Shown: piece by piece, positions 1,505-64,000 of the stretch
Position numbering within the stretch: position 1 is the first letter of the stretch
Layout: the number at the start of each line of letters is the position of its first letter
From: Cordylochernes scorpioides
Lineage: Eukaryota; Arthropoda; Arachnida; Pseudoscorpiones; Chernetidae
Assembly (NCBI GenBank): GCA_030710605.1
Contig: CP092882.1
Location: 15,932,062-15,996,061, forward strand
DNA: 64,000 nt
Direction of reading: 5' to 3'
Made by a program: the position numbers and the translations under genes
Notes under the pieces: model-generated
Database searches by the model: none
The model's input: only the letters and a program-made list of their open reading frames with translations
Told to the model about the DNA's origin: nothing

Positions 1505-2995
1505 TATATTTATAATTAATAACAATAAAATTTAACGAAGTAACGTCTTTTGCAATCGGCTGTTACACGTCATTTAGACATACTCTAATTTGTATATAGA
1601 ATAATAGAAGTGAGAATATATTTAATAGTAGAAATTTTAGTAGTTAGAGAGAAAAGAGAGAAAGACAGAACCATGCACTTTTATTCAAACTAATAATAAG
1701 AAAAACAAAATTGTAAAGAAGGTAGATAAGATTGTTAGTATATATATATATATTTTTTATAATTTTATATTTTATCCTTTTTTTAATGATTTTTATTTTT
1801 TTTTATTTTATAATATGAATATATCTAGTTGTATTTAGTAATATATCTATAATATGAATTAACTTTTGTTATAAGTTTGGTTATTATGTTTGAAACCCTA
1901 ATGGTAGACCAGACATATACAAAAAAATTTAAAATGAATTAATTAGTGGAAAGAGAGATATGCTGGACCGGAGATTTTCAAATAGAAATCCAGCTGACAT
2001 TTCACTCCTGCTCTATTATGCCATAGATCTCTCTTCGACCGGATTCTATGTGTTAATATTTGTTGTTTTAGTAAAACATTTATATACACAGATTTAACAA
2101 ATACAAGTGTTAAGAAATTCTAACTGTAACCTACCTAGTCTGTGACGCCTTCCTCTGTAAACAGCTATTTCTGGTTAACATCTGTTGCGGGGGGGGGAAC
2201 ACATGTTCGTCCCTTCAAAATTAGAATGTTTTCTCAGAAGTTTCAGATTAATAAGACAACTAAAGAAGAGAGAAAATAGTTGAGGGAAGAAAGCCAATCT
2301 TTATAATCTTTACAGTTAGTTATATTAATATAACTGATTCAATTATTATTTATCTTTTAATTTTCCTTTAAAAAGGTAAATTATTAGATGATTAATAAAG
2401 TTATTAATTTTGAAAATTCATTATTATTTAATTTCCATTTTCCTCCCCAGAAATTGGAGATTAAATAAAATGAATTCAATACAATATTACTTTAAAATTC
2501 TTGTGAAAAAATATCAAATTAGTTATATAATTTAAGTTTAATTAACTGTTAAAGATTATAAATTTGTATTAGTTATTATTGAGAGAAATTATAAAAAGTT
2601 GATTTAATAAATGGATACTTCCATTTATTTTTTTTTAAGTATTTTATAATTGATATACTGTTGAAATATTTTACTTGTTTAATACTAAATTTGTTTTTAA
2701 TAAATTCCATGTTTAAATTTTTAACATCTTCTATGAATTTTTTTAATATATTATTTACTCTATAAAATCTTAGAAAGTGAAATTTTTTTTCTTATTATTA
2801 GTTTGAATAAAAGTGCATGGTTCTGTCTTTCTCTCTTTTCTCTATATAACTACTAAAATTTATACTATTAAATATATTCTCACTTCTATTATTCTATATA
2901 CAAATTAGAGTATGTCTAAATGACGTGTAACAGCCGATTGCAAAAGACGTTACGTTGTTAAATATTATTGTTATTAATTATAAATATATATGAAT
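1505..2995 (-). mobile_element. Degenerate 5'-truncated Naiad-type Penelope-like element with an inverted 3' arm
   Basis: Positions 1505-2770 match, with many changes, the 3' untranslated region and the last codons of the Naiad reverse transcriptase in the array at 6.6-18.5 kb (compare 1880-2100 with 7290-7510, and 2590-2770 with 8020-8190). The last part, about 2790-2995, is an inverted copy of 1505-1745, so the relic forms a stem-loop with arms of about 200 bp. This is an older insertion of the same family. It keeps all stems of the hammerhead-like motif at 1962-2022 but has lost the CUGAUGA core. Confidence 0.8.
1962..2022 (-). ncRNA. Relic of the permuted hammerhead-like motif in the old Naiad copy
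   Basis: Also 61 nt. Stem I changed from AUAAA/UUUAU to AUAGA/UCUAU and stem II from GGGG/CCCC to GGAG/CUCC, both compensatory; stem III GGCAU/AUGUC keeps pairing through a G-U; the extra helix keeps GCUGGA/UCCAGC. GAAAUGUC is kept but CUGAUGA has become UUGAAAA. The structure outlasted the core. Confidence 0.55.
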
Positions 2996-12600: not shown

Positions 12601-15600
12601 CTTACAAATAGTGCTGTTAGAGTTTATAACAAAAAGAGTAATTATAATTTCAATATTATAAAATACTGTAATATGAATTCTAATATATCATTAAATTGCT
12701 GTAAAGGTATATATTTTGGTCAGTTTCTAAGATTTTATAGAATAAATAATATATTAGATAATTTCATAGAAGATGTTAAAAATTTAAACATGGAATTTAT
12801 TAAAAACAAATTTAGTATCAAACAAGTAAAATATTTCAACAGTATATCAATTATAAAATATTTAAAAAAAAATAAATGGAAATATCCATTTATGAATTCA
12901 ACTTTCTATAATTTCTATTAATATTAACTAATACAAATTTATAATCTTTAACAGTTAATTAAACTTTGATTAAATAACTGATTAAAAGATTTTTTCACAA
13001 GATTTTTAAAGTGTTAAAGTATATAGTTCATTTTTGTTTAATCTCCAATTTCTGGGGAGGAAAATGGAAGTTAAATAAAGTTGAATTTACACAATTAATA
13101 GCTTTATTAAACTATTATAATTTGCCTTTTTAAAGGAATATTAAAAGATGAATAAGTGTTAAATCAGTTATTTTGATATAACTAGCTGTAAATATTATGA
13201 AATTTAGCTTTCTTCCCTTAACTATTTTTCCTTTCTTCTTTAATTTTCTTGTTGTTCAAAAAAATTCTGAATAAATGGTCTAAATTTGAAATGTGGGGGG
13301 ACATTCCCCTCCCGCGACATGTGTTAGCCAGAAATAGATATTCACAATGGAGGACTCCACGGCAGAGGTAGGTTTACAGTTTGAATTTGTTAACACTTGT
13401 ATCTGTTATATATGTTCATTTAAATATTTCACTGAAACAACTTAATATTAACACATAAAATCCGGTTTAAAAGAGATCTATGACATAATAAAGAAGGGGT
13501 TGAAATGTCGCTGGAATTTTATCTGATGATCCCCGTTCCAGCAGATCTCTTTTTCCAATTTATTTCAATTTAAAGTTTTTTGTGTATGTCTGGTCTACCA
13601 TTAGGGTTTCAAAACATAATATCCAAACTTATAACAAATGTTAATTCATACTATAGAAATATTACTAAATACAACTATTTATAATCATATTATAAAATAA
13701 AAAAACCTATAAAAATCTTTTTTAAAAAAAGGATAAAATATAAAATCATAAAAAAAAATATATATATATATACTAACAATCTTATCTACCTTCTTTATAA
13801 AACTCTTTTTTTTTCCTTATTATTAGTTTGATTAAAAGTGCATGGTTCTGTCTTTCTCTCTTTTTTCTAACTATTATATATATTATCTCTTCGATTATTC
13901 TATATATAGGATTAGAGTATGTCTGAATGACGTGTAAAAGCCGATGTAATAGACGTTACTTTGTTAATTTTTTTTATTGTTATTAATTATAAATATATAA
14001 TTAACTTGAGGATGTAATAGAAGTAAAGGATTTTTTTTTTCTCTCTCTATCTACAAATTAATAACATTTTACAAATTTTATAATTTGTATTTAAATGATC
14101 ATAATAGTGAAGATAATCTTAATACAAAACTGGACTATAAAATTAAATAACTATTTATTATTATAATTAATTTAGATTTAGCTTGCTAATCTAATCAAAT
14201 CTAACTGATATAAGTTATCATTATTATCAGTTTGCTCCTTAAGTTTTTAAAATTAGAATCACTGTTATAATTTTGTTATATAGTTTCTACACTATATTAA
14301 TTCATATGAGCTTGCTCTATGATATATTTTTTTATATATAACATAATATACAAATTAAATTATATTAGATATTCTAATATAAATAAATCTTCATACAAAT
14401 TTTAATTATCTTTCATTGTTTGATTATTAAAAATTAAATTATAAAAGTAATTCTAGAAAAAAAAATAATTTCAGAACTTTTGTTTTTTTCAGTGTTTTTG
14501 TTAGTTTAAAGATGTTTTTTTTATTAGTTATTCTTAAAAATATAACAGATAACAAACAGTAATATCTATATATTTATAGATTAATTATTCAATTTATTAC
14601 AAATTTTATCACCACAAAAACAATTAAGTAAAATATATTTAAAAAATTCATAAGAATAACAAACTAAAAAAACTAAAAAAAACTACAAACATATTAGTGT
14701 TAGCACCTCTTTTATGTTAATTTAAACTCGCTAAGAATTGCCTAAGAAAAAATTGTCAAACTTGTCCCTCTCTTAAGAACCATGACACTTTTCAAACAAC
14801 TAGTTGTAAATTAGTGAATACTATTTATAAATTAACATGCCAAATTTGTCAACTATCATATATAGGACAAACTTGTAATCCATTAAATATACGAATAAAC
14901 CTACATAGAAACCACGCTAAAAAATCAAATGGTAATATATATATGAAAGAACACAATCAATTACATACTTTTAACAACTTTAAGATAGAAATACTAGACA
15001 TATGTCAAAACAAAAAACAACGACTATTATTATAAAACAACTACATTTATAAACACAACACATTATTCCCTTATGGACTTAACGACGAATTAAACTACAC
15101 ATACAAACCACAAACAGAAGAAATTTCAACTTATGAAATCAGTTGCAAATATAAAAATGAATTTAAAACTAAACCAAATAAAACTAGAGGTAAAACTACA
15201 AATAAATTAGGTTATATTGAATTTGAAGAATTACTGGACCCAAAACAAATGTACACTAACAACTTCGTCGATAAATTTATTAAAACATTATTTAAACTAA
15301 ATAATAATAAATTTATCAAACTCATAGAATATATTAAAATTCATAATCTGACTAACAGATTAATAGATATCACACACGACATCTTTAAATACAGAAAAAT
15401 TAAACAAAATACTAATAACATTAATATTATCATTAAATTTAATAACAATTTATTTAATCATATTAAATTTAATGATATTTTTAATAACCAAATCATCAAT
15501 AATCTTTTCCCTATAAAAAATTTAAATTTTAAAACAATCTGGAGATACAATAAAAATATAGGTAATTTAGTTTGCAATTATAACCAATTTATTAATAATT

Positions 15601-18464
15601 TGGCAAATTTAAAAAAAAATTAAATGTAATTGCAACAACTATATTGATAAATATAAGTTCTCAGGTCATATATTAACTAGCAACTTTTCTTTTTTAAATC
15701 CAGAATATCAAGAAATTTTAAATAAAGGGTATAAATATATACCTCAAATTAAACACAATTATAATAATACAATTAAATCTATATTAAAAGATATAGATAT
15801 TTTCATAAATAAAACTAGTATAAGATACAGTATTCCAGAATTTACTTTTCTGGAATGGAAACATAATATTAAAAAGGAAATTATAAATTATTATAATAAT
15901 ACACTTAAATACACAAAACCCAATTCAGACATTTCTTCTTTTAAAGAAAATATAATTAATTTACAGAAGGACTATATTATCACTCCTATAGATAAATGTC
16001 CCAATAATTTATCTTTAATTTGTAAAAATCTATACCACGATATACTAAAAAAGGAAATTGATAATAATCATAAATACACTTTTGCTAGAACTACAGGCAC
16101 AAAAATCAAAAAAGACATCAAAAATGTTGAAAATTCACTAAAAATTTATAATAACCACAAAAATCCAAACATACCAAAGTTCTATATAATTCCTAAACTA
16201 CACAAAAAACCTATTTCTTTCAGAACAATCACATCTGGTATAAATTCAGTCATAAAAAATATTGATATACAATTAGCCTCAACACTACAATTTATTATAA
16301 ATAAATTAACTAATAAATATAATTATAAATTTATCGACTCAAATAAAAAAATCATTAATTATTTAATGAACAATTGGACAAACATTGAAACAGTACACAC
16401 ATTTGACTTTGAGGACCTATATTCTAAAATAAATTTAAGAGATCTAAATAATAAAATAACCAATTTATTTAATGAATTCATTAATGACAAAACTTTCTAC
16501 ATTAAAATTATTCATAACAGATATAAAACATTTAAATTAGATCTTAAAACAGCAAAAACTCTACTGGAAACATTTTTAAATTTTAACTATATAGAATTTA
16601 AAAATAAAATATATATTCAATCAGAAGGCGTTCCCATGGGTACTTCTTCTAGTCCGTTATTAGCAAATTTAATATTGTTCTGGTACGAAAGAGAATACTT
16701 TCTACAAAATAATATTAATTGGCAAATATTCCGATATGTAGATGACATAATAATATTTAATAATCCACTGTTTAAAAAATTAATACCTGAAATATATCCT
16801 AAATACTTGAAACTTAAGAACAATGAAAAAATTTATAGAAACAAAAAAGTTAACTTTTTAGACTTGAATATAGACCTTACAAATAGTGCTGTTAGAGTTT
16901 ATAACAAAAAGAGTAATTATAATTTCAATATTATAAAATACTGTAATATGAATTCTAATATATCATTAAATTGCTGTAAAGGTATATATTTTGGTCAGTT
17001 TCTAAGATTTTATAGAATAAATAATATATTAGATAATTTCATAGAAGATGTTAAAAATTTAAACATGGAATTTATTAAAAACAAATTTAGTATCAAACAA
17101 GTAAAATATTTCAACAGTATATCAATTATAAAATATTTAAAAAAAATAAATGGAAATATCCATTTATGAATTCAACTTTCTATAATTTCTATTAATATTA
17201 ACTAATACAAATTTATAATCTTTAACAGTTAATTAAACTTTGATAAAATAACTGATTAAAAGATTTTTTCACAAGATTTTTAAAGTGTTAAAGTATATAG
17301 TTCATTTTTGTTTAATCTCCAATTTCTGAGGAGGAAAATGGAAGTTAAATAAAGTTGAATTTACACAATTAATAGCTTTATTAAACTATTATAATTTGCC
17401 TTTTTAAAGGAATATTAAAAGATGAATAAGTGTTAAATCAGTTATTTTGATATAACTAGCTGTAAATATTATGAAATTTAGCTTTCTTCCCTTAACTATT
17501 TTTCCTTTCTTCTTTAATTTTCTTGTTGTTCAAAAAAATTCTGAATAAATGGTCTAAATTTGAAATGTGGGGGGACATTCCCCTCCCGCGACATGTGTTA
17601 GCCAGAAATAGATATTCACAATGGAGGACTCCACGGCAGAGGTAGGTTTACAGTTTGAATTTGTTAACACTTGTATCTGTTATATATGTTCATTTAAATA
17701 TTTCACTGAAACAACTTAATATTAACACATAAAATCCGGTTTAAAAGAGATCTATGACATAATAAAGAAGGGGTTGAAATGTCGCTGGAATTTTATCTGA
17801 TGATCCCCGTTCCAGCAGATCTCTTTTTCCAATTTATTTCAATTTAAAGTTTTTTGTGTATGTCTGGTCTACCATTAGGGTTTCAAAACATAATATCCAA
17901 ACTTATAACAAATGTTAATTCATACTATAGATATATTACTAAATACAACTATTTATAATCATATTATAAAATAAAAAAACCTTTAAAAATCTTTTAAAAA
18001 AAAAAAAAAAAGGATAAAATATAAAATCATAAAAAAATATATATATATATACTAACAATCTTATCTACCTTCTTTATAAAACTCTTTTTTTTTTTTCCTT
18101 ATTATTAGTTTGATTAAAAGTGCATGGTTCTGTCTTTCTCTCTTTTTTCTAACTATTATATATATTATCTCTTCGATTATTCTATATATAGGATTAGAGT
18201 ATGTCTGAATGACGTGTAAAAGCCGATGTAATAGACGTTACTTTGTTAATTTTTTTTATTGTTATTAATTATAAATATATAATTAACTTGAGGATGTAAT
18301 AGAAGTAAAGGATTTTTTTTTCTCTCTCTATCTACAAATTAATAACATTTTACAAATTTTATAATTTGTATTTAAATGATCATAATAGTGAAGATAATCT
18401 TAATACAAAACTGGACTATAAAATTAAATAACTATTTATTATTATATATATATAATATATATAT

Positions 18465-18507
<43 letters not shown>

Positions 18508-21500
18508 GAAAAAGGCATCTCCTTATCGTGCAACTGAAAGTTGCTGATGGATGGCGCCATCTATCGGAATAAATATCAACTATTCTCGTTGATTTTTAAT
18601 TATTCCAGAATTGGCCAAATACCCATTCTTGATTAATCAAGAAAAGCTAACCACGGACGCGTTTCGGGCTGTTGGCCCTCATCAGCGTGGTGCAAGCTGT
18701 ACCTCACCGACCAAAAAATTGGTCATTAAGGCATCCTGAAAAATCATGAAACGGGTAGTTAAGGCCAGAATTGCGTGAGGACGCTACACAATGTGAATAA
18801 ATAGTACAAATGTAACATTGTACTGGGATAAGGTGCATAAATTAAGAAAAAGGCATCTCCTTATCGTGCAACTGAAAGTTGCTGATGGCTGGCGCCATCT
18901 ATCGGAATAAATATCAACTATTCTCGTTGATTTTTAATTATTCCAGAATTGGCCAAATACCCATTCTTGATTAATCAAGAAAAGCTAACCACGGACGCGT
19001 TTCGGGCTGTTGGCCCTCATCAGCGTGGTGCAAGCTGTACTTCAACGACCAAAAAATTGGTCATTAAGGCATCCTGAAAAATCATGAAACGGGTAGTTAA
19101 GGCCAGAATTGCATCCGTGGTTAGCTTTTCTTGATTAATCAAGAATGGGTATTTGGCCAATTCTGGAATAGTTAAAAATCAACGAGAATAGTTGATATTT
19201 ATTCCGATAGATGGCGCCAGCCATCAGCAACTTTCAGGTGCACGATAAGGAGATGCCTTTTTCTTAATTTATGCACCTTATCCCAGTACAATGTTATATT
19301 TGTACTATTTTTTCATATATATATGTTATATTAAGATATTATTTAAAATGTTATATTAAAATATTTTATTTAAAATTATAATTTCATAGATATAAATACT
19401 CTGTTTTAATCGACCGCCAGAGGTCACGCTTCTACTATATAAACTGATTGTTGTTCTTCCCCGTTGGTCGGCCCAAAACTTTGTAATTATGTAAATAATA
19501 TTTTGTTTTCTTATTCTACTCGCCTTAAGACAGGCAGTACTTTACTCAAATTATGTTTTTCATATATATCACTTAGCTCAAATAAAGAAATCTATGATCT
19601 TCAATATTATATTTATTTCAAGATTTTAGCCACGACTGCACCACCATAGCATAACCATCAATATGATCAAAATTCAAGCAGGAAATCTCTCAATCTTTTT
19701 TTTAATATAATATATATATTATAAAACTATTATAGAGGCGTAATATTCTTTTTAAAATAAAACAATTTCTACTGTCCTTACTGCGATGGAAAAATTAAAG
19801 GGAGGGCCTGGCTCATCAGTGGTGAACCCTCCCAGCGGTTTCGCCAGTAAGGACAGTAGAAATTGTTTTATTTTAAAAAGAATATTACGCCTCTATAATA
19901 GTTTTATAATTTGATAACAGATGGCGCTCTAGTACATCATAATAATATATATATATATTCAAAAATAAATAAAGTTTTCCAATTGGAAAAAATATTCGAT
20001 TAATAAATTTAAAGTTGTAAAATGAAGATCATTGATGAATAATTATCTTATAAAATATATTTGGTAGGGTCTATAATATTAAACAAAAAGGATTTAAATA
20101 TAATCTTTATTTTTATGTTTAATATATTGTAAAATCTTTGTTTACGTAATATAATTAGCAAACGTATTATAAGATTTATTTATTGGGGTATTAGATATAT
20201 TTATTTACTTACAGGATTGTTGTTAGTATTAGATAGCGTTAGTTCTTTTATTTACATTCTATATAGAACTCAACTGTGTTGCCGAGTACGAAATTAACTA
20301 TATTGCATCTCTCCTTTTTTATAAATCCATTCTTTTTGGTGGCTTCACCTGGCGACCGCTTCTTGTGAACTTCCGCACCTCTCTGGTCTCCTCCTCTCCA
20401 GCTGGATTATCAGTTTCCGACTGCAGCTCCATGCTGTCAGAACCTTTAGGCTGAGTTTCTTGATCTTGCTCCATAGTTGAACAGGCACTTCCACTGGGTT
20501 CTTGCTCAAGGATGCTTTCATGGTCTCTTTGGGATTGGTTAGTTGTAATATGTGATTGGTTTCTTCTGTAGAGTCCTTTGTTGTTCTGGACTGTATAGGA
20601 CTTTGGACCATCTTCTCGAACTATTGTGGCTGGTTTCCAGTTTCTTCTGTTTTCTCTTAGATAAACTTCTTGTCCGATCTTGAAAGTTGGTTCGTCTCTT
20701 GATCCTTTGTCATAGTAGAATTTCTGCTTGTTTCTGGATCTTCTTAGCTTTAAAGTGACATCTTTTTGGATGCAAGGTCTTAACAATTCTTTGCTGATTG
20801 GCAAGATTGTCTTTGTTCTTCTTGAAAGTAATCTTTGTGCTGGTGATCCCATGTCTTCTCTTGGAGTATTTCTATAGTTGAGTAATGCAATCTGGATATC
20901 ATCTCCACTTTGTTTGCATTTTCTAAGAATGTTCTTTGATATTTGCACAGCTCTTTCAGCCAGTCCATTTGATTTAGGGCAATGTGGACTTGAAGTCTTG
21001 TGATTAAACTTCTATTTGTTGCTGAATTCATTAAACTCTCTTGAAGCATAATTTCTTCCATTACACAGGTCTACAAAAAAAACTTTTTTTTTTGCACAAG
21101 AGAACCTGATGGTGTTTCTAGTGTAACTTTTCATGCTGAACTCAAAAATCTAATCAGAAATTTCCCATCACCCATGGTTTTTGCCTGACGATCTTTTTTT
21201 AGTATTGGGATAAATACATGCATCCAACATGAAAGAGACTTACGGAAACATGAAACTGCTTTGGAAAAAGATAGAATATGAAAGATACGGTTGAAAAATA
21301 TGCAGCGATTTGAAAGTCGTTGCTCTCTTGCGTGGATTACAGCTTGGATATACAAAATTTTGTTGTTTTCTGTGTGAGTGGGATAGCAGAGATAGAGAAA
21401 GGCATTACATAAAAAAATCTGGCCAAACCGTAAAATCCTTACTCCAGGATATAAAAATATTGCAAATCTACCCCTGATCGATTCAGAAAATATTTACTTA

Positions 21501-27500: not shown

Positions 27501-30500
27501 ACAAATCGATTAAGTAAGTATCTAAATTTTGTTAATGTTAAAATAAGTGAAATTTAAATTTTCTGTACTTATACTAGCTTTCGAAAATAACTCTTCTGTT
27601 TAATTATGGAAATTTTTAATCCAACATTATTTTGAAAAAAAAAAATCAATTTTACTTTTATTTTCATTATATTATTTTAGTATTACAAAACATTTATTTG
27701 TTGTCAAAAATCACTTTCATTCTTCATTATTATTACTTTTATATATTGTATGTTTGATTCTGTTCACTTAAACTTTATTCAACCACAATGATATTTCTAT
27801 ATTTTTATTCATTTTATATTTGTTTTTATACCTTTATAATAGGACAAATAATATCATTAACTATCGGGCATACAACAATCTATTTCTCTAACCACTTCAG
27901 TTTACTTTTCACTACTATCTTCTCAGCTAATGCTTCACATCAACGTAGAAAAACAATAGTACTGCTTGACAATTTTTTTTTATTTCTTAATTTCAATAAA
28001 CTCATTGAGAACATAGTTCCCCAGATTTAAAAATCCAAAATTCTGGCTTGAGCACGCTTCAAAAGTTTACTTCAATCATCCACAGAGCACAAATACCAAC
28101 GCATACACAAAGCGTTCACGACTCTCACAACTCAATTTTTTTAGATCTAGCGGACCACAATCAACCTTTGATTTTAAGTCAAGTCAGATCACCTACTGTC
28201 GAAACAACAATTCTACTTATAGCATGGTTCTCCATTTCAGCCCTTTCAATCATATTAATGAACAACTTTTTCTTCAACAACTTTTCAACCCAATAACCCT
28301 ACAATTGTGACAAAGCACTGTAACCTTATACAGGATCACAGGTGAAACATTGCCTAGGAAGACGCACAATTCTATATCCTCGCTTTGCACCTGGATCTCA
28401 GTATTTGATTGTCTGTGCAATACTTACAATTGCATATTCTTCAACCCCTAACCCTTTCCAACTCCCGCCAAAAATCTCTTAGAACATCATTTTATTTTTT
28501 ATCATCATTATTTTTTAGCAAACAAAGGTTTTATATACATTTCTCTTTTATAATGAATATCATAACTTTTAAATTAAACATAAGTTTTATTTTTTATAAT
28601 TTTCAGATATATCCAAACAAACATCTTGTTATAGCCCTTTAACCTCACAGTTTAAATTAATTAAAAGAAATTTTAATTACTTACCTGTGTTAGAGAGGCT
28701 TTACCCATTTAAACCTGGATAAACCCTTTCACTCCCGGGGCTCATCTATGGTAATTTAAACCAACAACCCTATATTGTATAATACTTATAACAAGATTGT
28801 CATGTTGTATATAGAACCACATCTATAAATAATTATACGCATGATTGACATGTGTCATTGCATCACCATATGTAATGTACTTTGTACAAACTGAGGGTGA
28901 ATAAATAAAACTATGTGATAGATTAAGAGCTGAGTTAAAGCAACATTGAGTAGTTTAAAAACGTCTAAAATCGAGAGAGAAATCCAACAACCCTAAAGGA
29001 ATGTGGCAGCCCGTCGCCATTATGGTCTAAGGGTGCAGAATGCCGCAGACGTCCAAAGTCCAAATTCTCAGACATCTCCCCCCCCCCCCCCTCCTCGGGA
29101 ATGGTATATAAAAACCTTGGTTTTAGCCCAACGTAGTCAGTCACTTCACCGTAAGCGTAAGCCCTTGTTGGCTGCAGCCAGGTCCACCTCATCGACCATG
29201 TAAAACAGTAAGAAACCTTCTTTCTCCATCTTGCTCTTAGCTAGACTCCTATCTGTTCACGGAACTTTCCTACTACAACTGTGTCTCTTCGTTTTTTGTT
29301 TGTGGACATTCCCAAGCTTTCCACTCTGCCTCGACCACGACTGTCTGTACTCTGTGAAAACTGTTAAATGTCTTCCAAAGTGCAGAGAGGTACTGGAAAA
29401 CTCTCCACGCCCATACTGTCCCTCTCGGTTACTACAGGTTTGACCCTCGGTTACCACAGCTTATAGCGAGAGTTGACAGGATCCCTCATCACAGATAAGT
29501 CGACAGGACCTATATCACAGCCATAAATTTGAAAGTTATAAAATGAATAAAATTCATCTAGTTTATTTAATTATAAAGCGAAAACGTGCCATCTATTTAT
29601 TTCAAATGGAAGCATTGAAGCATGAAATGTTTCGTTGCAAATATAAAACATACATCTATATATTAATATTGTTTCATCGCATTAAGTACAGTAGAAGTTC
29701 ATTTTATATTTACAAAGAAACATTCGTGCTTTAATGTTTCCATTTAATATATTTTAATAATAGAAATACCTCCTTTTTCTGTGATTATGATTGAGTTCAC
29801 CTACCTGATGAATTCACCAGTTTCTTGGACATATAGATCAGCTGAGATCCTTGATTCGCCATTCTTGAAAAATGAAATAGATATAAGAAATATTAATTTA
29901 TTATTATGAGGATGTGTTCTTACCTTCCTACTTCATTTTCGTGTGAATGATCTGCCAACATAGCTCCAAACTGTTGACAGTATTGATTTCCGAAATTCCA
30001 GTTTTCTCTAAATGACGATAGCTGCAACAAAGTTACTTACATATCATTAATGTATTAGCATATATATGCAAATTATTTATAGATAAAACATATATATTAA
30101 GATATATTTTATATTTTTTATTGTTGAATCCTTTTTTGGCACATATATTAAATAACATCTCTCGTTTGAAATTATATTTATAGTGAACTCTATAAAAGTT
30201 AATTAACCTTTTAAAATGTTCAATATTTAAGATGAAGTAATTGAGTGAGATTTAAAATGGAATAACATCTAATTGAGACGAGATTCTTCATTAAAGTGAA
30301 ATTTATTTTTTAGATTTTTGTATTTGCATTGCGACCTCTTGAAGGAGGTTATTGTCTGAAAGTTGGCAAGCTGATATCTCCTTAATTAAATAATCTAGTC
30401 ATCATTAACATATTCCTTTTTAGAAATGATATCCTGAGTTTCCTTTTATTGTAAGTAGATATATGCCATACCTGGATTATAGGCGAACATCTACTAGGTA

Positions 30501-42500: not shown

Positions 42501-45500
42501 TACCTCAGTCCCGAAAAGTCTCCGCTGCTTGTGCGTCTTCGGCGTGGGGTGGCTGCGTGGAACGCTGGGCGTGTGGGATTGGGACCGTTTGCACTGTCCG
42601 CGCACTCGGGTGTCGATTTTGGGCCATTTGCACTGCCCTTGCGTTTGCGTGTGTTGTCGGGGCTGGCCTATGCCGGCATTCGCTGTGCCAGTGACGAGCG
42701 CCGCATAACTTACAGTTGGACGGCGGAGGAGGTGCAGTCCATGCACCTGTTCGTCGGGGCGTGTTGGGGTATGGCCCCGACATGGTGGGCGGTTGGTCCT
42801 CTCGGTGTCGTGCCGTTGGCATGCTGGGCCCGTGGATCCACTGTGCCAGTCGGAACCACTCTCCTAGGCTCTCAGGAGGTACCACGCGGACCAGGCGCTG
42901 GTCGGAGAACGGCAATCCTTCCGTCAGCGTCTCGAGGATCACCTCCTGTGGGGGCCCTAGTTGTAAACCCATGGCGGTTTTCTCCCGGTAGTACGTTCCC
43001 AGGTCTGCTTGTCAGTGAGCTTCATGGCGAAATATTTCGCGAAGGACGCTTCGCTGGATTCTGGATAGAGATCCAAGAGGATTTGCCTCACCTGGAAATA
43101 TTCCTGGGTGGCCAACCGGAGTTTCCTGAAGTGTTCCAGGGGTTGGCGCGTCAGGTAGTTCGGCAGTCGGAGTAGTTTTTCGGGGGCGTCCACGTGGGCG
43201 TTATCCATCTTCTGGTCGAAGGCTTGGAAGAATTGGTGTGCGCTGTAGGTTCCATCGAAGGGCGGGAGCGCCGCCGCGGCTCCGTCGGAGACCTTCGCTT
43301 GGCTCAGCAGCGTCGCTAGTTGTAACAGGACGCCCGCCAGGGGCGCAGTTGTCTCCCCACTCCCTGCCGACTCGCCCTCTCTCGATTGGTTGCCGTCATC
43401 TTTGACTTCTGTATTCTAGTTACTTTCCATTATATCCTGTCGACTTATTGTGGTATCATCGTTGCGGAATCTTTTGAAGTTGGTGGATAATTGATTTGAT
43501 TGGTGTTGGCGCAGTCGTTTGAGTGACAAGTTATGCATACAAGGGAAAATAATGAACACAGAGGGGTTGGTTGAGTTGAAAAAGGCTGGCAATCTAGGGA
43601 GAAAAGGACTTGAGGAGTTGACTATCGACTATCTATTCCATAATTGAGAATGGACTTATCTGAGGTTTGAGGAGATGGGCTTTTGCTCCAAGCTGATTCC
43701 TATGGCGCCACGATCCTGACTCGGTGCTGTCCCGGGGCTAACTAACTATTCTGCGTTCCCGATTTAAGAAGAAAACTCTTTTGGCCTCTCATTGGCTGAT
43801 CGTTCGTGACGTGTAATCTCGCTATAGGTTCTTGGCTAATGTTCTACTCTCTGATTGGTCTTTGCTAATTCTTTGTTTTTGGACTTGTCCTAACCTGACC
43901 AGGAAATGCTAGGTTCTTGAACCCAGTTTTTATGAGTTCCGGGATAATAAACCCTGCTAATGATTGCTTCCTCTTTGTCAGTCCTTTTCTCCCAGATTCT
44001 TAAGCCTTGTATTTATTAAATCTTTTAAAACATACATTGCATACATATTTGGGCGGGTTTGCATCCAGTTATGTACAAATTATGACATATATATTACTTT
44101 GGGTAATCTTCTTTCATTGCTTTTCTTATATTTCATCTATTTTAGTTTGTGGTTTTCCCTTAAATGAATTGCTGCCTCAACCTGAAATTGTCTTTACTAA
44201 TTTTCTCATCACCATATTTAGTTTCTAGAATATATAGATCTATATGTAAAATTGATATTGTGTTTAGGTTTTATCTATAGATTGCCATAATAACATTTAG
44301 ATCAGGTTTAGTTGATATGTTTCCATTCCTGTACCTAATGACATTCCACAAAAAGATCGTGATTACACTCTATGGATCTTTTTAGTCGAATGCACTATAG
44401 AGATCAATATATTAAAAATACTCATAAAAAACTAAATAATTGTAAAATAATTGCTTATTTATACAAGTATAGACACATATATAGGGATATGCCATATATA
44501 GACACAACCAAAACATCGAAATTAAAATAATTTATTAAGAAAAAAGCCATCTGTTGAATGTGTGGCTGAAAGTTCTAGATCAGTAGATGCCTTTTTCTGA
44601 ATCCAAGTCAAGTACAAATTCGTTTTTGTACTAATATAAAAATAATTTATGTTTATTCTAAAATCTACTATTTCTATTAGGTTATTAAAATGAAAATAGA
44701 TAGATGATTCAAATATTTTAACACAAAGCAATAACGCGCCATCTGTACATATAAAATAAAAGGATTTAAAAGCGCGAATGTTTCTTTTATACATAAAACG
44801 AACTTCTACTGTTCTTACTGCGATGAAAAAATATATTGGGAGGGCTTGGCTCATCAGTGGTGAACCCTCCCAGCGGTTTCGCCAATTTAATCCACCAGAC
44901 CGCTTCTCAGAGCTCTAATACTGTATTGGATCATTCTGCTTTTATATGCTACACTGAAGGATGGAATCTTAGAAATGGTTTTCAAGTAAACTATGGACAT
45001 AAGCTAATAGGACAGTAGAATTACATTCAAATATTTGCTTCGAGCAATGCTCTTCAGCAAACTATAAATACAAGGCCATTAGGAATAAATTAACACAAAG
45101 CATTGCTCGAAGCAAATATTTGAATGTAATTCTACTGTCCTATAAGCTTATGTCCATAGTTCACTTGAAAACCATTTCTAAGATTCCATCCTTCAGTGTA
45201 GCATATAAAAGCAGAATGATCCAATACAGTATTAGAGCTCTGAGAAGCGGTCTGGTGGATTAAATTGGCGAAACCGCTGGGAGGGTTCACCACTGATGAG
45301 CCAAGCCCTCCCAATATATTTTTTCATCGCAGTAAGGACAGTAGAAGTTCGTTTTATGTATAAAAGAAACATTCGCGCTTTTAAATCCTTTTATTTTATA
45401 TGATTCAAATATTTAATGTACATTACAGTAGCGAATATGTATATAGACAAAGAAATCTGATTCACTCTATAGATTTTGTGAAATATCTTTAATATTATTA

Positions 45501-49600: not shown

Positions 49601-52600
49601 TAAACCACAATTACTCAACGTTTGATATCCGCAAATGTTTCAAACATCTTCTCAGGTAACAGGCGTTGACTAATTTTCTTTATCAGATGGCCTGATTTCC
49701 ATCCGCACTCTACAACTGAAGATGGGCTGACTCTGGAATCGTCCCCAAGTTTTAGCATCCGAGTCGCTAAAATAATTCCTAATTCTTTGCCTTTTGCTTA
49801 CTTGGGCCACTCCTCTTCTGGTTTTTTAAGGAATTCTGGCCTAGTGTACCACATGTCCGTAGGTTTAAATAAAATCTCTGTTTCAAATCTGGTCGCTATA
49901 TCAACAGGATTCTCGCTTGTTGGAACCCATCTCCAGTCGGTTCCTTTTATCGCTTCCTGAATCTCGCCGACTCAGTTAGCTACAAACTCCTTGTAGCGTC
50001 CTGCTTCAGAGCGGATCCAGGCCAGAATCGTTTTGGAGTCACTCCATAAAACCTCCCTGTCCACTTTTGGAAGTCGCAGTTCGAAGCGAAGAAGGATAGG
50101 GAATCTCGTTCTCTGCACGTAGGCCTTGCAGCTCCAATTTTGGTATGGTAAGCTTTTTCAATGAGGCTACTCTTGCTTTGAAGCCAAAGAGAGTTGTAGT
50201 AGTATTTCCATTTCTCGCTTCCACTCGCAGGTAGGTTACAGAGGAGAAAGCTTCTTGGCTGGCATCAACAAATGTGTGGACCTCCACTTGTCGAATGATA
50301 CTTCTGCTGAGCATGTCTGGAAGGTAGCACTGTGGAATTTGAACGAGATAATTTCTTTAAACTTACTGAGCCACAGTTTCCACGCTGCATAGATGTCTGG
50401 CGTAAGTTCCTCATCCCATCCAATACCAGCAATCCACTTTCATTGAAGAATAATGATTCCCTTTAATTTGAAATGGTTGAGCAAGCCAAGGGGATCATAG
50501 ACACTAATCACGAGACTGCTTGCTTGACGTCTCGTAGGTACCGCTCCTTCAAGTATCTCTGGGGGCACCTTATTAAGTCCGAATTTGAATCCAAATATAT
50601 CCTTCGTTAGATCCCACCACATACCGAGCACGATTCCCGCGGAAATAAGGGACTTCTCGTTCAAAGATTCCACCCCTTTTGCACTAAGCTCTTCTAGGAT
50701 TGACTCAACGACTGCTCTGGAGTTGCTGGTAAACTTGCATAGGTGGAATCCTCCAACTTCATTCACCTCAGAGAGTTCCCTTCTCAAGTCCATGCAAATC
50801 TCTTCTGAATCTGCACCCGTCAGGCAGTCATCAACATAGAAGTCGTTCACAATCGTGTGCGCCAATTCATGATTTACCAGCTCATGCTGCATGGCGTTTT
50901 CATTCTTCGCGTGGATTGCAGAACACGGTGAGGAAGTGGCCCCAAAGATCAAGACTTGCATTTCGTAATGATTCGGTTCTATTGACGTATTCATGTTTCT
51001 CCATAGAAACCGCTGACTGCATTGGACTTCTTCGATTACGCGAACACGATGAAAAATGTCTGTAATATCTCCAGTTAGCGCGATATTGTGAACTCTAAAG
51101 ATCCAAAGGATTGATGTGAGTGGGCGAATTAAGTCTGGTTCTTTTGAAAGAGCTTCGTTCAAAGACACGCCATTCGATCTTGCTGAAGCATCAAAGACAA
51201 GGCGTAGCTTTCCCGGCTTAATTGGGGTAGTGACGCCAAAATGGGGAATGTACCACACCGCGCACTTTCTTTAGTTACTTCAATGCTGTCCAGCTTTCGA
51301 ATGTACCTTTTTTCCAGATATTCATCAAACTTCGCTTTATACGCCACTAGAAGTAATGGATATTTTGCAAGCTTTCTTTCTGTATGGCGAAGCCTTCCAA
51401 GAACCATTTAATAGCTCTCGGCTAGCGTACCCTCTGCGTCACGCCAAAGTAGACCGTTCTCCCAACATGCTCCGGTCCTCTTGGTGGTCTTTTGCAGGAT
51501 GTCATACGGTAGTCCTTCAACTTGATTCATGCCCTGCCACCTGGTTCTCGCGATTACTCCAAAGTTCTCAGTTGAAAATGATGACTTGATCAATTCATGG
51601 ATATCATTATCGTTAACTGGTTCCGAAACTGTGTAGTTGACGCATCCCTGTGTCTCCATTAGGTCATGAAAATTTCCTCCAACAGTCCATCCCAGCGGTG
51701 TTTTCCATCCAATTGGAGCGTCGGAAGGACCCAAGGCAAGCTCGCGGTGAAGGATTAGCCTGAGATTGTTTATTCCGATAATCAGCTCAGGAACAACATT
51801 CTTCAGGTCTCGGGGGTTTGATCTTGTTAGATGTGGCCATTTATGACGGATTTTCTCAATTGAAATCGAGTAAGGTTTCATCTTTAGACCACTCACAGTA
51901 ACTGCGTTTTGCATTGAGAGGTACGGAGCTCCACCGAATGTTCCTTTTGCTTTGTTGACGCTGCTAGGTCAACCTCATCTCATCCTTGAGGAATGCGAGC
52001 TGTCCTAAGTACGTCTTTGCTTTTGCTCCAGTTCTAGATGGACTTCCTAGCTTCTTGTATTCCAGGCGGAATGGTTCATGGCGACTCCTAGCAGCACCAA
52101 TCTTGGGAATTCCTTTGTTTTCCATAATGAGACAACAATTGGTCTTTTCAAAGTTCAGTTATTCTTTTCAAAATCAGTAAGCCTGGACGTCCGTCAAGGA
52201 GCGTGTCCAACCAATCAACTCAAATAACTTTCCAAGAATTTAAACTTTAAATTAACCTGTTACCAAAGTGTCATCCTGCTCGAGGGACCAGTGATGTAGG
52301 TTTGCGAGCGTAGGGTCACTTCCCTTTACGGCTCGAAAGCTAAAAATAAAAACAATAGAAAACCATTGTTTATCGCTCGTTTATTTTTAAAGAATGTTTT
52401 AGAACAAAAAGCGCGTGCCTCCCAGCGAGAACACTAGCACGTGAGTTCCTGTGCGCGCGCCTGCCTGCCAGCGAGAGCAGTTTCACGCGACCGCCCGCCA
52501 GAGAGAGAAGCTTTTTCTTAATTACAAAGCAAATCCTTAACTATATTTACAGGTTTATATTTCATAACTATTTCACAAATTTACAATATATAAATAAGAA

Positions 52601-55600
52601 CAGGAGAAGATTTTATTTAAAATGTTCTTCTTTCTCAATCAATCATTAATCTAATTTGAATGTAAAGATACATGTTTTAAGGCTATATGGTACTTCATTA
52701 AATATATATATATATATAAAAATAGGAGTTTTCTGTTTGAATTTTCATCATTCTCAATCTGAAACAATCATTAATCACGAGCCATTTCTGAAATTATATG
52801 AATATGATATTTGATATCAATTTTTTTAAATGGCGTTTCTCTTCTCTGTTAAACAAAAACTATCTATTTACTGTTTCAACAAACTGGCAGGGTTTGGTTC
52901 CTGACAGTAAATAGATTGCGTCTATTTTGTGACAGGAGGTATAACTGTATTTCATTAGATCATTATATATTATAACAGAAAATGGTCTATCTATATACAC
53001 TCTACAACATTAAAAAAATCTAAGTTTAAAGTTGTTCAATTGGAACAAAAATTGGTGTTTGTGAAAAACATGTTCAGAAGAAAATCTAATAAACATAAGG
53101 AAAAATGAATTGTTTTATTCCAGAATTTGATCCTCACAAATTAAGAAATCCAATATGTTGTTGGACATTTAATTCAGTGGAGGATGAAGAAAACCTATCT
53201 ATTTATGGAGATCTTTTATTATTTTGAATATTTGAAAAATGCAATTATTGAGAAGAGGCAGTTATGCAAATCAAAAAAATCATTTATACATAACTCTCTT
53301 TCCACCTTACCTAAACCATACCTATCCAACAAGGAACAACATTATAGTAATAACATTTTATTCGCGATCGTATGTTGTAGACCACCGTATGTATCACATC
53401 CCAAACACGATGCGATACCAGACATCTCTGTCTTGAGCTCGATTTACTATATCGGCGACCGTCAAGCCAGTGAGTTCTTTTAATTGGTCCACGAAGCGTG
53501 TCAGCAGGCGTCGAGGGAAAGCGTCGCCCAGACGTCATTCAGGTCAGTATGGTGTACTTCATTCCCTTGCGTCGCGCGAAGTGACCAAAGAATATCAAAC
53601 AATTCCATTGTACACGTCACAGAAGTCGGCAATCTTCCGAAATAGAAATTTCCCAACAATATTCTTAACTTTTATAATACGATGCACTAGCGCGCCATCT
53701 CTTATCAAAATTCGAAACTATTTCAAACGCGTGATTCTTTTTGAAAATAAACAATTTCTACTGCCTTTACTGCAATGGAATCTTACGCGTTTAAAATAGT
53801 TTCGAATTTTGATACTTAACTTTAATTTAGAGATAATAGTTGAATCAGTAGGGTTGTTCACAATTATGGATATGAGTAAAATACATTATAGGTGAAAAAA
53901 GAAATGGATTACCTTCAGGAGGTATCAGGTATTTCAATCTGTTCTTGGATAATTCGTATAAACAAAGAGTTGCCCCTTCTCCTTCACAGTAGTTATCAGC
54001 TTCTATTTCGGAGACCTTGTTGGTTCGTAGCAGGTAGCAATTATTTATGAAGGTCCGCCAACCCTCAGGACATGGACCTGTAACATTCTCTTGCTTAAGT
54101 TGTCATATTGCGGACAAAATGTTATTGTGTTGAGACCTACGTCACACACTTTCATTTGGAGAATATTTATAGCCAATGTATGGACCTCTGGTATTGTCGT
54201 AGTAAAACATTAATCTGTAAAGAAAATATCGAGAGAGAGAGAGAAGTAAATTGAGTGATACTGTGGCAAAAGGAACTAAAAAGTATTTATTCTCGTTGTC
54301 TAAAGGTATGTGATGTTTGCCTGGTCATTTTTATTATTCAGAATACAAACTGAATTTGCATTTAATAAAAAATGAAAATTGATCAATGGCTGAGTGGTTC
54401 ATACCGTCGATTTTCGATTGAAAAAGAACCGAGGTCGAATTCCTAATTGGAAAATACTTATGAAGAAGTAATTGCTTTGATATGGCCTTGATTCTTTCAC
54501 AAGTCTAAGCTTACTGTTGTTTGCAAATAACCAATTGCGACTCTGGAAAACTGCAAAGTCGTTAACTGCCCACCATGATTATCTTGGTCTTAATCTCAAA
54601 TGTATGTGGTCTATTAAAAAATAATACAATTTGTATATTTAAGACAGAAATAGAAACTTTATAAATTAAAGGAAAAAATGTCGTCTTCTAGTAACAATTT
54701 TAGATTTTAGATACTCTACTATGCTCGCGGTAATATGCAGACCATATATCTGTTTAGATCAAATTATATTATAAAGGTATACCTTGATATTTTGTGAATA
54801 TGATTCCAAAAATAATTGACTTAATTTGGCGTTAGATTCATGGCTAACTTGAGTTGACAATTCAATTGTATAATCCCCTGCATCAATATCGGTCAAAAAC
54901 ATATGACCTCCAGGGAAAAGCATCACTTAAAAGAACATTTTATTCATATTTCTCGGTAACGAATGCCCCTCTACACCAAAGAACGTGGTATCATGAATCT
55001 ATCGTCCAATGAAATAAATAATTACTTGAATCTGATTCACTAAAAATCATTGAAGCTAATAAATAATGCTTGAAAAGGCCTTCTGTGTCTAAAAAGACAA
55101 AATTATATGTATTTAGGAAAACAGTGGCTATGTGTTTTGACAGAACACCAGGTTCCTGCGGATGTGATAATCAAGAAACATGATAAGTGGGTTAAAGACA
55201 GAAAATAAAAGCTCTCAGGATTCATAAATCAGCTTTACAGAAATCATTTCCTAACTTTTCATCATAATTATTTTTCTACGTCATTAAACAAATTATATAT
55301 ATATTAATAATATATATATATTATACAGTTAAAAATGAATAAATTAATAATAAAGTAATAAAATACAGTAGACCCTCTATAAAGGACACCTAATCACAGA
55401 GCCAAAATGTCCTTTAGGGAGAAGTGGCCTCTTACCGGAGAGTTGCCAAATATTGAAAATAGTAATTTTGTAAATGAAAACTGCCCTTTGTAGAGAGGTG
55501 TCCGCTAGCTGGGTGCCGCTAAAGGTAGGTTCTACTCTAATACAATATTACTTAAATATATTGTTGAATCATGATTAATGCGCTATTTTTAAAATATATA

Positions 55601-62703: not shown

Positions 62704-64000
62704 CTGCACAACACATTAAACTTGTATTTGTTAATATTATCAGTGAAATTATAAATAGTATCATAATTATACCTGTTGAAGGGCTGTTATGCCCAAAGGC
62801 TAGTATTGTTTGTGATAAAAAAAAACTTTCCCTCAGAGAATTATATTTTTATCATATTTGTATATTGCCTATTGTTTATATTATGTTTATTATTTTTTAT
62901 ATACAGTACAACCTCCTTTTAAAATACACCTAATGGCAGAGCTAAGTGTTCTTTATGAGAGGTGTCCTTTTACCAGAGAGTTGATAAATTGTAAAAAAGT
63001 AATTTTGCAAATAAAAACTGTTCTCTGAAAAGAGGTGTCCACTAACGGAGTGTCCGCTATAGATATTAGTATAACATTACAATGGTATATCATGACTTGT
63101 TCTCTCTCTTGTAATGATTCACAATTATAATATTTGAGAATTTTTTTTCAATTTGGATGTCTTCAAATAGGATAGTCTTTTTTATTTATTTTTTTTTGAA
63201 ATATTAAAATAATGACACATTTACGTTTATGTTCTTACTCCAACTGTCGTTGCTTAATTTATGTCCACTCTGAAGGAAATTTTCTATTCGAGCTAGAGAG
63301 AATATTAATATTAATATTTTATGAACAGATTAATAAATCTGATATTTATATTTTGATACTCTGTATAGATATTGCTGTTTACATTATTGCTCAACTTTTA
63401 CTTTATAAATAACAGTTTGTTCTTGTGCTTTAAATACATTTCTGTGTCATCCTGTGTTACCTCATTGTCTATGTCACAATATAATAACAGTCTTGAATAT
63501 CGCTTAAATAAAATCATTTTATTATATATTTATGTCGTATTGTAATTTTTCCAAAGTTCAATGTGTGGAAATGACAATTAAGCAGTCGTTTGTGGCTGTC
63601 TCCACCTCAATAATCATCGTCTTTTTTTTTTTTTTCAAATCTTTTTTAAACAAAACAAAAATTTACATACACCATTTAATTAAATCTTTAGTAAAAAAAA
63701 TAAAATAAAAAAAAATTTACATTCTATCATTCAAAATGTATCATTTATATATACACAACATCGAAGTAGTGTATTGTCATAGCAAAAATGTACCTGTCCC
63801 ATAAATGTCTATAATACCTCGGCAAGAGGGTTGTGTACCTGAATACCTAAATATTGCGGTTAATGTTTATAAATTTCCCGCCTTGAGCGCGCCATCTATC
63901 GGAGCTTAGTTGCACAAAACCTGCCGAGCTGCCAATGTATTACAGGCTATATTTATTTTTGGCTATGACAATATATTTTCAAGATTCATTTCTAAAACTA
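62704..64000. other. Right edge: intron of the upstream lectin gene, no further exon seen
   Basis: Contains one MITE (62904-63073). At 63880-63905 a GCGCGCCATCTATCGGAG stretch resembles the edge of the retrozyme and fold-back repeats. No CTLD exon was found; upstream exons should lie beyond 64000. Confidence 0.45.
62904..63073. repeat. MITE, copy 3
   Basis: Same family (CAGTACAACCTCC start; GTGTCCACTAACGGAGTGTC near the right end). Confidence 0.65.

Follow-up and report, generated by a model that had tools for sequence, protein, structure and literature searches.

The non-circularly permuted hammerhead of type SGC, comprising the HRIMA-1 motif and its variants, was described by Eckert et al. 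(2023; PMC10085705). The sections of that paper devoted to this type put the number of predicted members at 583, report in vitro cleavage at the expected bond for five of them, and show for one tested member that all four helices are needed, including the helix that joins stems I and II. Some of the members have no bases between stem III and this joining helix. According to the same sections, the only candidate among all of their RNAs that came from the genome of a known organism was of type GCS. A search of the open-licence literature for type-SGC hammerheads in an animal or in a retroelement produced no report among the matches listed.

Two retroelement systems are relevant for comparison. 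Metazoan non-LTR retrozymes are described, in the part of the source dealing with them, as carriers of type-I hammerheads (Cervera and de la Pena, 2020; PMC7229834). The second is the lizard Penelope-like protein of PMC11167929, which, in the experiments described there, is able to cut either strand of the target and to extend it. Its reverse transcription begins at two internal sites that lie next to each other, a behavior that the authors tie to the optional 30–40 bp tail. In the same account the start site was alike on the top and bottom strand, hammerhead mutants were still able to insert in vitro, and among the RNA-seq reads the authors saw none with an end at the hammerhead position.

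Identification of a type-SGC hammerhead

The window, i.e. the whole stretch of 64,000 nucleotides of Cordylochernes scorpioides DNA that was analyzed, contains a fold-back element for which the original prediction had proposed a permuted hammerhead in each arm. Our layout scan found the motif again at the same positions, with a canonical core and mirrored in both arms (Table 1). In both arms the strands follow the order S-G-C, that is, cleavage-site strand, GAAA strand and CUGAUGA strand, and are accompanied by a fourth helix; this pseudoknotted order is not the nested one of hammerhead types I, II and III. All of the conserved core, CUGAnGA, GAAA and U16.1-H17, is present in the plus-strand motif, as are stems I, II and III with their strands ordered S, G, C, and the cut site proposed earlier coincides with the bond at which a hammerhead would be expected to cleave. 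It is worth noting that the two arms count as one observation, because both belong to a single 304-nt inverted repeat that is 99% complementary. For the same reason the ribozyme could be trapped in a 304-bp hairpin, and the window locus itself may therefore be inactive.

In the folded unit, the fourth helix, which joins stems I and II, had a pair probability of 0.99–1. The 66-mer folded alone by a program that cannot draw the pseudoknot of stems I and II gave stem-III and fourth-helix hairpins at -26.3 kcal/mol (z = -2.3), with 5 of 200 shuffles being equally stable.

Table 1. Positions of the features in the window and of one array elsewhere in the genome (contig C1).
Feature	Position	Strand	Remarks
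Type-SGC hammerhead	45247..45312	+	Layout, permutation scan
Stem III' GCGGU	45247-45251	+	
H17 = C45252	Predicted cut 45252/45253	+	
Stem I' UGGUG	45253-45257	+	Extendable to 45259
Stem II' UUGGC	45265-45269	+	
GAAA strand	45270-45273	+	GAA 45270-45272; last A opens stem III
Stem III ACCGC	45273-45277	+	Then U before fourth helix
Fourth helix GGGAGGG/CCCUCCC	45279-45285 with 45306-45312	+	UU after first strand
Stem I CACCA	45288-45292	+	
CUGAUGA core	45293-45299	+	
Stem II GCCAA	45300-45304	+	J = G45305
Same ribozyme, other arm	44838..44903	-	H17 at 44898
Whole fold-back insertion, subfamily A	44719..45399		Two inverted copies of 372-nt unit
Target-site duplication, left copy	44704..44718	+	ATGATTCAAATATTT
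Target-site duplication, right copy	45400..45414	+	
30-nt tail with AGATGGCGC	44719..44748	-	Only this end
Repeat of tail start	45090..45102	+	372 bp from 44718
Second fold-back, subfamily B	19720..19941		Right-end tail; AT-microsatellite duplication
G-C blocks of second fold-back	19800-19846	-	Without cleavage-site strand
Third fold-back	29572..29741		Arms stop short of ribozyme; left tail; 7-bp duplication only
Fourth fold-back	53673..53814		Without ribozyme; left tail; duplication CTTAACTTT
Type-I hammerhead retrozyme-like tandem repeat	18499..19318		338-bp unit, inverted arm
Type-I hammerheads	18636-18701 and 18974-19039	-	
Naiad-type Penelope-like ORF, 824 aa	8006..10480	-	GIY-YIG first, reverse transcriptase second
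Naiad SGC-layout motif stretch	13447..13567	+	Identical copies 17721-17841 (+), 7360-7480 (-)
81%-identical Naiad motif copy	1935..2057	-	Core decayed
L279 array	C1:7155500-7163500		Minus units, then plus units

When set beside type SGC as characterized in the relevant sections of PMC10085705, the motif has the same block order, all conserved core letters and a short I'-II' linker. In both, the distal sides of stems I and II are connected by a helix, which is the "extra helix" of the first description, and at most a few bases separate this helix from stem III (here one base, or none if stem III is taken as 6 bp). The I'-II' linker of 7 nt (5 if stem I is 7 bp) is longer than the 3 nt typical of the published members. 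The source is also different: those members came from metatranscriptomes, whereas the ribozyme studied here is DNA-encoded in a retroelement, with over 10^5 matches to a piece of its core. On the basis of layout, core, joining helix and covariation, the ribozyme is a member of type SGC, with cleavage as a prediction. The original prediction had gone further in suggesting a distinct ribozyme class, a proposal that we reject since a layout with this block order and joining helix has already been published and cleaves in vitro (PMC10085705). With the class being known, the novelty resides in its DNA-encoded home within a mobile element.

As the original prediction had argued, the layout is not due to chance. 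In 780 Mb of an order-2 Markov null, scanned on one strand, there were 0 matches with stems of at least 5 and a fourth helix of at least 6, 2 matches (about 3e-4 per window) with stems of at least 4 and a fourth helix of at least 5, and 5 matches with stems of at least 4 when the fourth helix was left out. A scan of the window for all six permutations, using a strict CTGATGA and stems of at least 4 (with a stem III of at least 2 allowed for the type-I order), returned nothing beyond both SGC arms and a pair of ordinary type-I hammerheads. Among the matches listed, the full layout with stems of at least 4 occurred in 0 of 248 IMG/VR loci that had been chosen for GAAA and CUGAUGA strands with matching first pairs. 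A chance origin of the SGC layout was dropped on the strength of these Markov nulls and the viral-contig control. Neither patterns nor the Naiad protein revealed relatives in IMG/VR among the matches listed. The Rfam hammerhead models gave no match in 44700-45440 up to E = 5, and the Rfam microRNA matches at 44942-45208 were discarded as a reflection of the long hairpin.

Fold-back insertions in the window

The outer ends of the fold-back that carries the complete ribozyme correspond to the RNA 3' side. The insertion is approximately 0.7 kb in length, none of the listed ORFs of at least 150 aa overlaps it, and it lacks the ORF with GIY-YIG and reverse transcriptase by which an autonomous Penelope-like element would be recognized. 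Together with three further, related fold-backs in the window, it has border direct repeats, which are 15, 13 (AT microsatellite), 7 (weak) and 9 bp long in the order of Table 1, and a tail of about 25–30 nt containing AGATGGC(G/A)C at one end only in each. In the copy with the complete ribozyme, the left arm runs past the inner end of the inverted repeat, after which the tail start recurs 372 bp on; a 12-nt match of this kind arose by chance in 1 of 5000 shuffle pairs and in 13 of 20000 random window pairs. Since the left cDNA apparently ran past the unit end, the template was presumably tandem or circular, and this arm seems to be a cDNA that went once round a 372-nt template of either form, circles and multimers fitting alike.

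Genome-wide family and subfamilies

A 36-base G-C piece of the ribozyme was searched for, with up to 3 mismatches, in 2,619,359,433 bases (2.62 Gb) on 24 contigs. The search yielded 111,719 matches (55,722 forward and 55,997 reverse), a figure that counts the G-C piece and not complete ribozymes, as against 0 for the reversed-pattern control. While the original prediction was correct in that the fold-back carries a permuted hammerhead, the element is not an isolated one, as evidenced by these more than 10^5 core-piece matches and by the 372-bp unit. The listed places of the G-C piece included arrays with an exact 372-bp spacing, which is the unit length predicted from the window. As is the case for retrozymes, the tandem units of these arrays are non-coding, measure a few hundred bp and each contain a ribozyme.

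The minus-strand part of the array L279 contains 11 full 372-bp units and an outer unit truncated to 342 bp, and is followed by 3.6 units on the plus strand. The array is flanked by a 14-bp duplication, ATGTTCGTTTATAT (identified by eye), and has a tail at its right end but none at its left, and the 14 units that were compared differ by 0–9 bases of 372. A higher-order period of three was observed in this array (m6=m9, m7=m10, m5~m8), of the kind that a later block duplication or template reuse might leave.

A free-stem scan covering 76 sources (292,925 bases including overlaps) identified 72 full-layout instances that represent 24 distinct strings. The complete ribozymes of subfamily A have the cut triplet GUC and a stem II of UUGGC/GCCAA, and those of subfamily B have GUA and CUGGC/GCCAG. 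The U-A to C-G difference in stem II between these two large subfamilies is a compensatory change, in effect one event; in subfamily B, the fifth pair of stem I is also mismatched (A-C). The CUGGC/GCCAG stem that had been read in the shortened copy at 19800-19847 is accordingly genuine, as complete copies in the genome share it, and our earlier explanation of its C-G pair by junction homology was withdrawn. Between the A and B copies of the window, the block from the G-C piece to the fourth helix was identical at 46 of 47 positions, whereas the outer arm agreed at 70 of 90 (Fisher p = 0.001). Two other variants were seen: a third subfamily at L257, L258, L268 and L277 with AGAGCGGTCTAGAGA or near variants upstream of the GAAA strand, and a minus-strand copy at L298 with CUGU/ACAG instead of CGGU/ACCG in stem III, a possible compensatory change.

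The conservation data bear on the simplest alternative, namely that the S-G-C order is a coincidence in a GC-rich repeat patch and that we are dealing with a fold-back DNA transposon or MITE of the ordinary kind. The long terminal inverted repeats speak for this, as does the fact that the two arms represent a single event. We nevertheless consider this explanation highly improbable, given the null rate of about 3e-4 matches per window even at the looser stem setting, the formation of tandem arrays by the unit, the better conservation of the ribozyme block than of the arm, and the arms of different copies, which vary in their inner starting point and in their tail, unlike the products of cut-and-paste. 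The best reading of the family is that of a non-coding, non-autonomous, retrozyme-like element with a 372-nt unit and a putative SGC hammerhead in each unit.

Insertion ends and the predicted cut

Outer ends were assigned in 62 fold-backs drawn from 83 sampled loci and the window; the loci were picked for the G-C piece, at its first places on contig C1, and the arm-end counts do not represent a random genome sample. One tailed and one tail-less end were found in 37 fold-backs, two tailed ends in 2 and two tail-less ends in 2; a further 20 had at least one end elsewhere, and 1 had an end off the locus. The tail at one end, the variable target duplication and the inverted or tandem copies are features of Penelope-like insertions. 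Inner ends vary between fold-backs, and many of the joins overlap by a few bases.

This variability helps to distinguish between two cDNAs copied from two RNAs and a single cDNA on which the second strand was made by snap-back (hairpin-primed) synthesis. The 99% complementarity of the arms of the window copy is what the snap-back route would give, but among the 55 centers listed only that of L295 has two equal inner ends, two different outer start sites were used in 37 of the 62 insertions, and the type-I element of the window has an inverted arm that is 95% like its first unit when the direct copy is 98.6% like it. Snap-back synthesis is thus an improbable origin of the fold-backs, and we continue with the reading of two cDNAs.

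If the ribozyme cuts, some of these cDNAs are expected to end at the first base after the cut. Inner arm ends at -1/0 of the predicted cut were indeed in excess: 6 of 124, from 5 insertions, as opposed to 0.67 expected (Poisson 7e-5), two of the six being both arms of one insertion, L295. When ends anchored by the G-C piece were considered, 8 of 106 fell on the cut or within one base of it, with 0.57 expected, a count that uses material overlapping with the former and is not independent of it. Clustering at 15–20 among the 46 G-C-anchored ends within 5–60 nt was weaker (p = 0.008). Palindromes of the form ...AATCTACCA|TGGTAGATT..., joined exactly at the predicted cut, were present at L291 and L295, and of all 743 unit offsets tested in the 83 loci only offset 0 gave a palindromic junction of this kind (2 loci), bar one AT repeat. 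The 24-base subfamily-B palindrome at the cut occurred at 30 genome places on 16 of 24 contigs, these being raw places that are possibly not independent (several pairs are 45–105 kb apart), and the reversed control at 0. The palindrome contains AT, a 2-nt homology that could favor joining there, and the reversed-pattern control does not cover this effect. We infer from these DNA scars that the RNA is probably cut in vivo at the predicted bond.

Most arm ends lie away from the predicted cut, so most templates were either copied through the cut site or stopped short of it, as would be expected if uncut, ligated or circular RNA also served as template. The same observation would be in keeping with an SGC hammerhead that is real but a passenger of a Penelope-type non-autonomous element, with its cutting irrelevant to mobility, and the insertion in vitro by the Penelope protein in the experiments of PMC11167929 proceeded without hammerhead cleavage. 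We judge the passenger explanation to be unlikely in light of the conservation of the block across subfamilies, the compensatory stem-II change, and the cDNA ends and palindromes at the exact predicted cut. The tie to retroelement mobility that the original prediction had suggested was supported, and a ribozyme that takes part in mobility remains our preferred reading.

Naiad-type and type-I elements of the same window

The sharing of the layout with a second, Naiad-type element of the window was likewise substantiated. Slices of its ORF matched GIY-YIG (PF01541, E = 1.6e-6) at the N-terminus and reverse transcriptase (PF00078, E = 9.4e-9) at the C-terminus, an order that we take to be that of Naiads; the whole ORF had no match when compared with Pfam, and only matches above E = 0.2 were obtained among PDB sequences. 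The Naiad group, which Craig et al. reportedly described in 2021, is said to form insertions at AT targets that are tailed at one end, carry target duplications and occur in tandem and inverted arrangement; its members reportedly lack canonical hammerheads. The fold-back element shares these insertion features with the group; moreover, the Naiad-order ORF in the window belongs to an element with an SGC-layout motif. The 372-nt unit differs in that it codes for nothing, and a candidate sequence link between this unit and the Naiad element was rejected, none being convincing.

The Naiad motif has an odd stem-II core, with U against U or UU, in three unchanged copies. The more divergent copy has compensatory changes in stems I and II and in the fourth helix: out of 21 pairs, 17 were unchanged, 3 had two-sided changes, 1 had a one-sided change and 0 were broken, a pattern as good as which was seen in 6 of 200,000 random mutation simulations, with helix borders that were fixed after looking. 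The Naiad-type cluster at 6627-18462 consists of a full minus copy, a partial plus copy and a full plus copy between AT microsatellites; within it, a cDNA junction at about 11696/11701 falls in the SGC motif.

The type-I element offers a further comparison. Its hammerheads matched Rfam HH9 with 26.5 bits (family cut-off 52; E = 3.7e-4), and its inverted arm starts within 2 nt of its own cut site, as judged by eye. The AGATGGCGC word of the fold-back tail is found 93 nt past the cut site in this element and 93 nt past the last ribozyme base in the SGC element, and its position relative to the start of reverse transcription differs between the two. This shared word and the similar build indicate that type-I and type-SGC hammerheads reside in similarly built elements of one genome. 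The right outer end of the type-I element is 46 nt longer than the left.

With the retrozymes, as portrayed in the part of PMC7229834 dealing with them, the SGC family has in common AT-rich, non-coding tandem units that are a few hundred bp long and contain one ribozyme each, duplications of more than 4 bp, and Penelope-like elements in the same genome. The difference is that the retrozyme hammerheads are of type I, as in the element at 18499-19318, whereas a non-circular permutation is found here.

Other features were noted in the window. At about 63885-63900 (minus) lies CCGATAGATGGCGCGC, the first 14 letters of which are common to the type-I element; the sequence, which is truncated where the window stops, probably represents another family of Penelope type. 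On the minus strand, a 314-bp direct duplication with 97% likeness at 55879-56301 contains two tRNA genes, each scoring 57.2 bits. A BEL/Pao-like reverse transcriptase fragment at 50440-51270 and a C-type-lectin-like stretch at about 61590 were recognized by eye and point to an animal genome.

Proposed mechanism and implications

Taken as a whole, the reading that we favor, at a probability of roughly four in five, is that the family is retrozyme-like and is mobilized by a Penelope-like reverse transcriptase, with an SGC ribozyme that would cut in vivo. Tandem 372-nt units would be transcribed, and the ribozyme would cut between H17 and the next base (45252/45253 in the window copy) to release monomers, which may remain linear or become circularized. 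At an opened target, these RNAs would then be copied by a Penelope-like reverse transcriptase that starts at two sites separated by about 30 nt, putatively one per target strand. The two cDNAs would grow inwards and join, often at short homologies, leaving a fold-back insertion that is tailed at one end and tail-less at the other; from a multimeric or circular template, long tandem-plus-inverted arrays would result.

The fold-backs, as read from the genome sequence, resemble the lizard Penelope reaction as it is described in PMC11167929, and the same applies to the tail. Other observations in that description, namely the equal start sites on both strands, the insertion without cleavage and the finding of no reads at the cut, argue against parts of the model. 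We found no autonomous element sharing the fold-back tail.

With less assurance, though still on the favorable side, we lean towards a broader proposition: that an entire branch of Penelope-related elements, including autonomous ones of Naiad type as well as the non-autonomous 372-nt retrozyme, may have swapped the ordinary hammerhead for the SGC permutation, which would cleave in vivo and whose cut ends would be fossilized as head-to-head cDNA palindromes. The non-circular hammerhead had so far been reported only as sequence from unknown organisms, and is here placed at a defined position in a mobile element. If the proposition is true, the orphan SGC ribozymes of metatranscriptomes would gain a likely biological home. 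The cDNA ends and palindromes would provide a DNA-only readout of ribozyme cutting and of Penelope-like two-strand priming. Having SGC and type-I elements in one genome would permit a direct comparison of two topologies at what is apparently the same job, and the system would allow the origin of permuted ribozymes to be put to the test.
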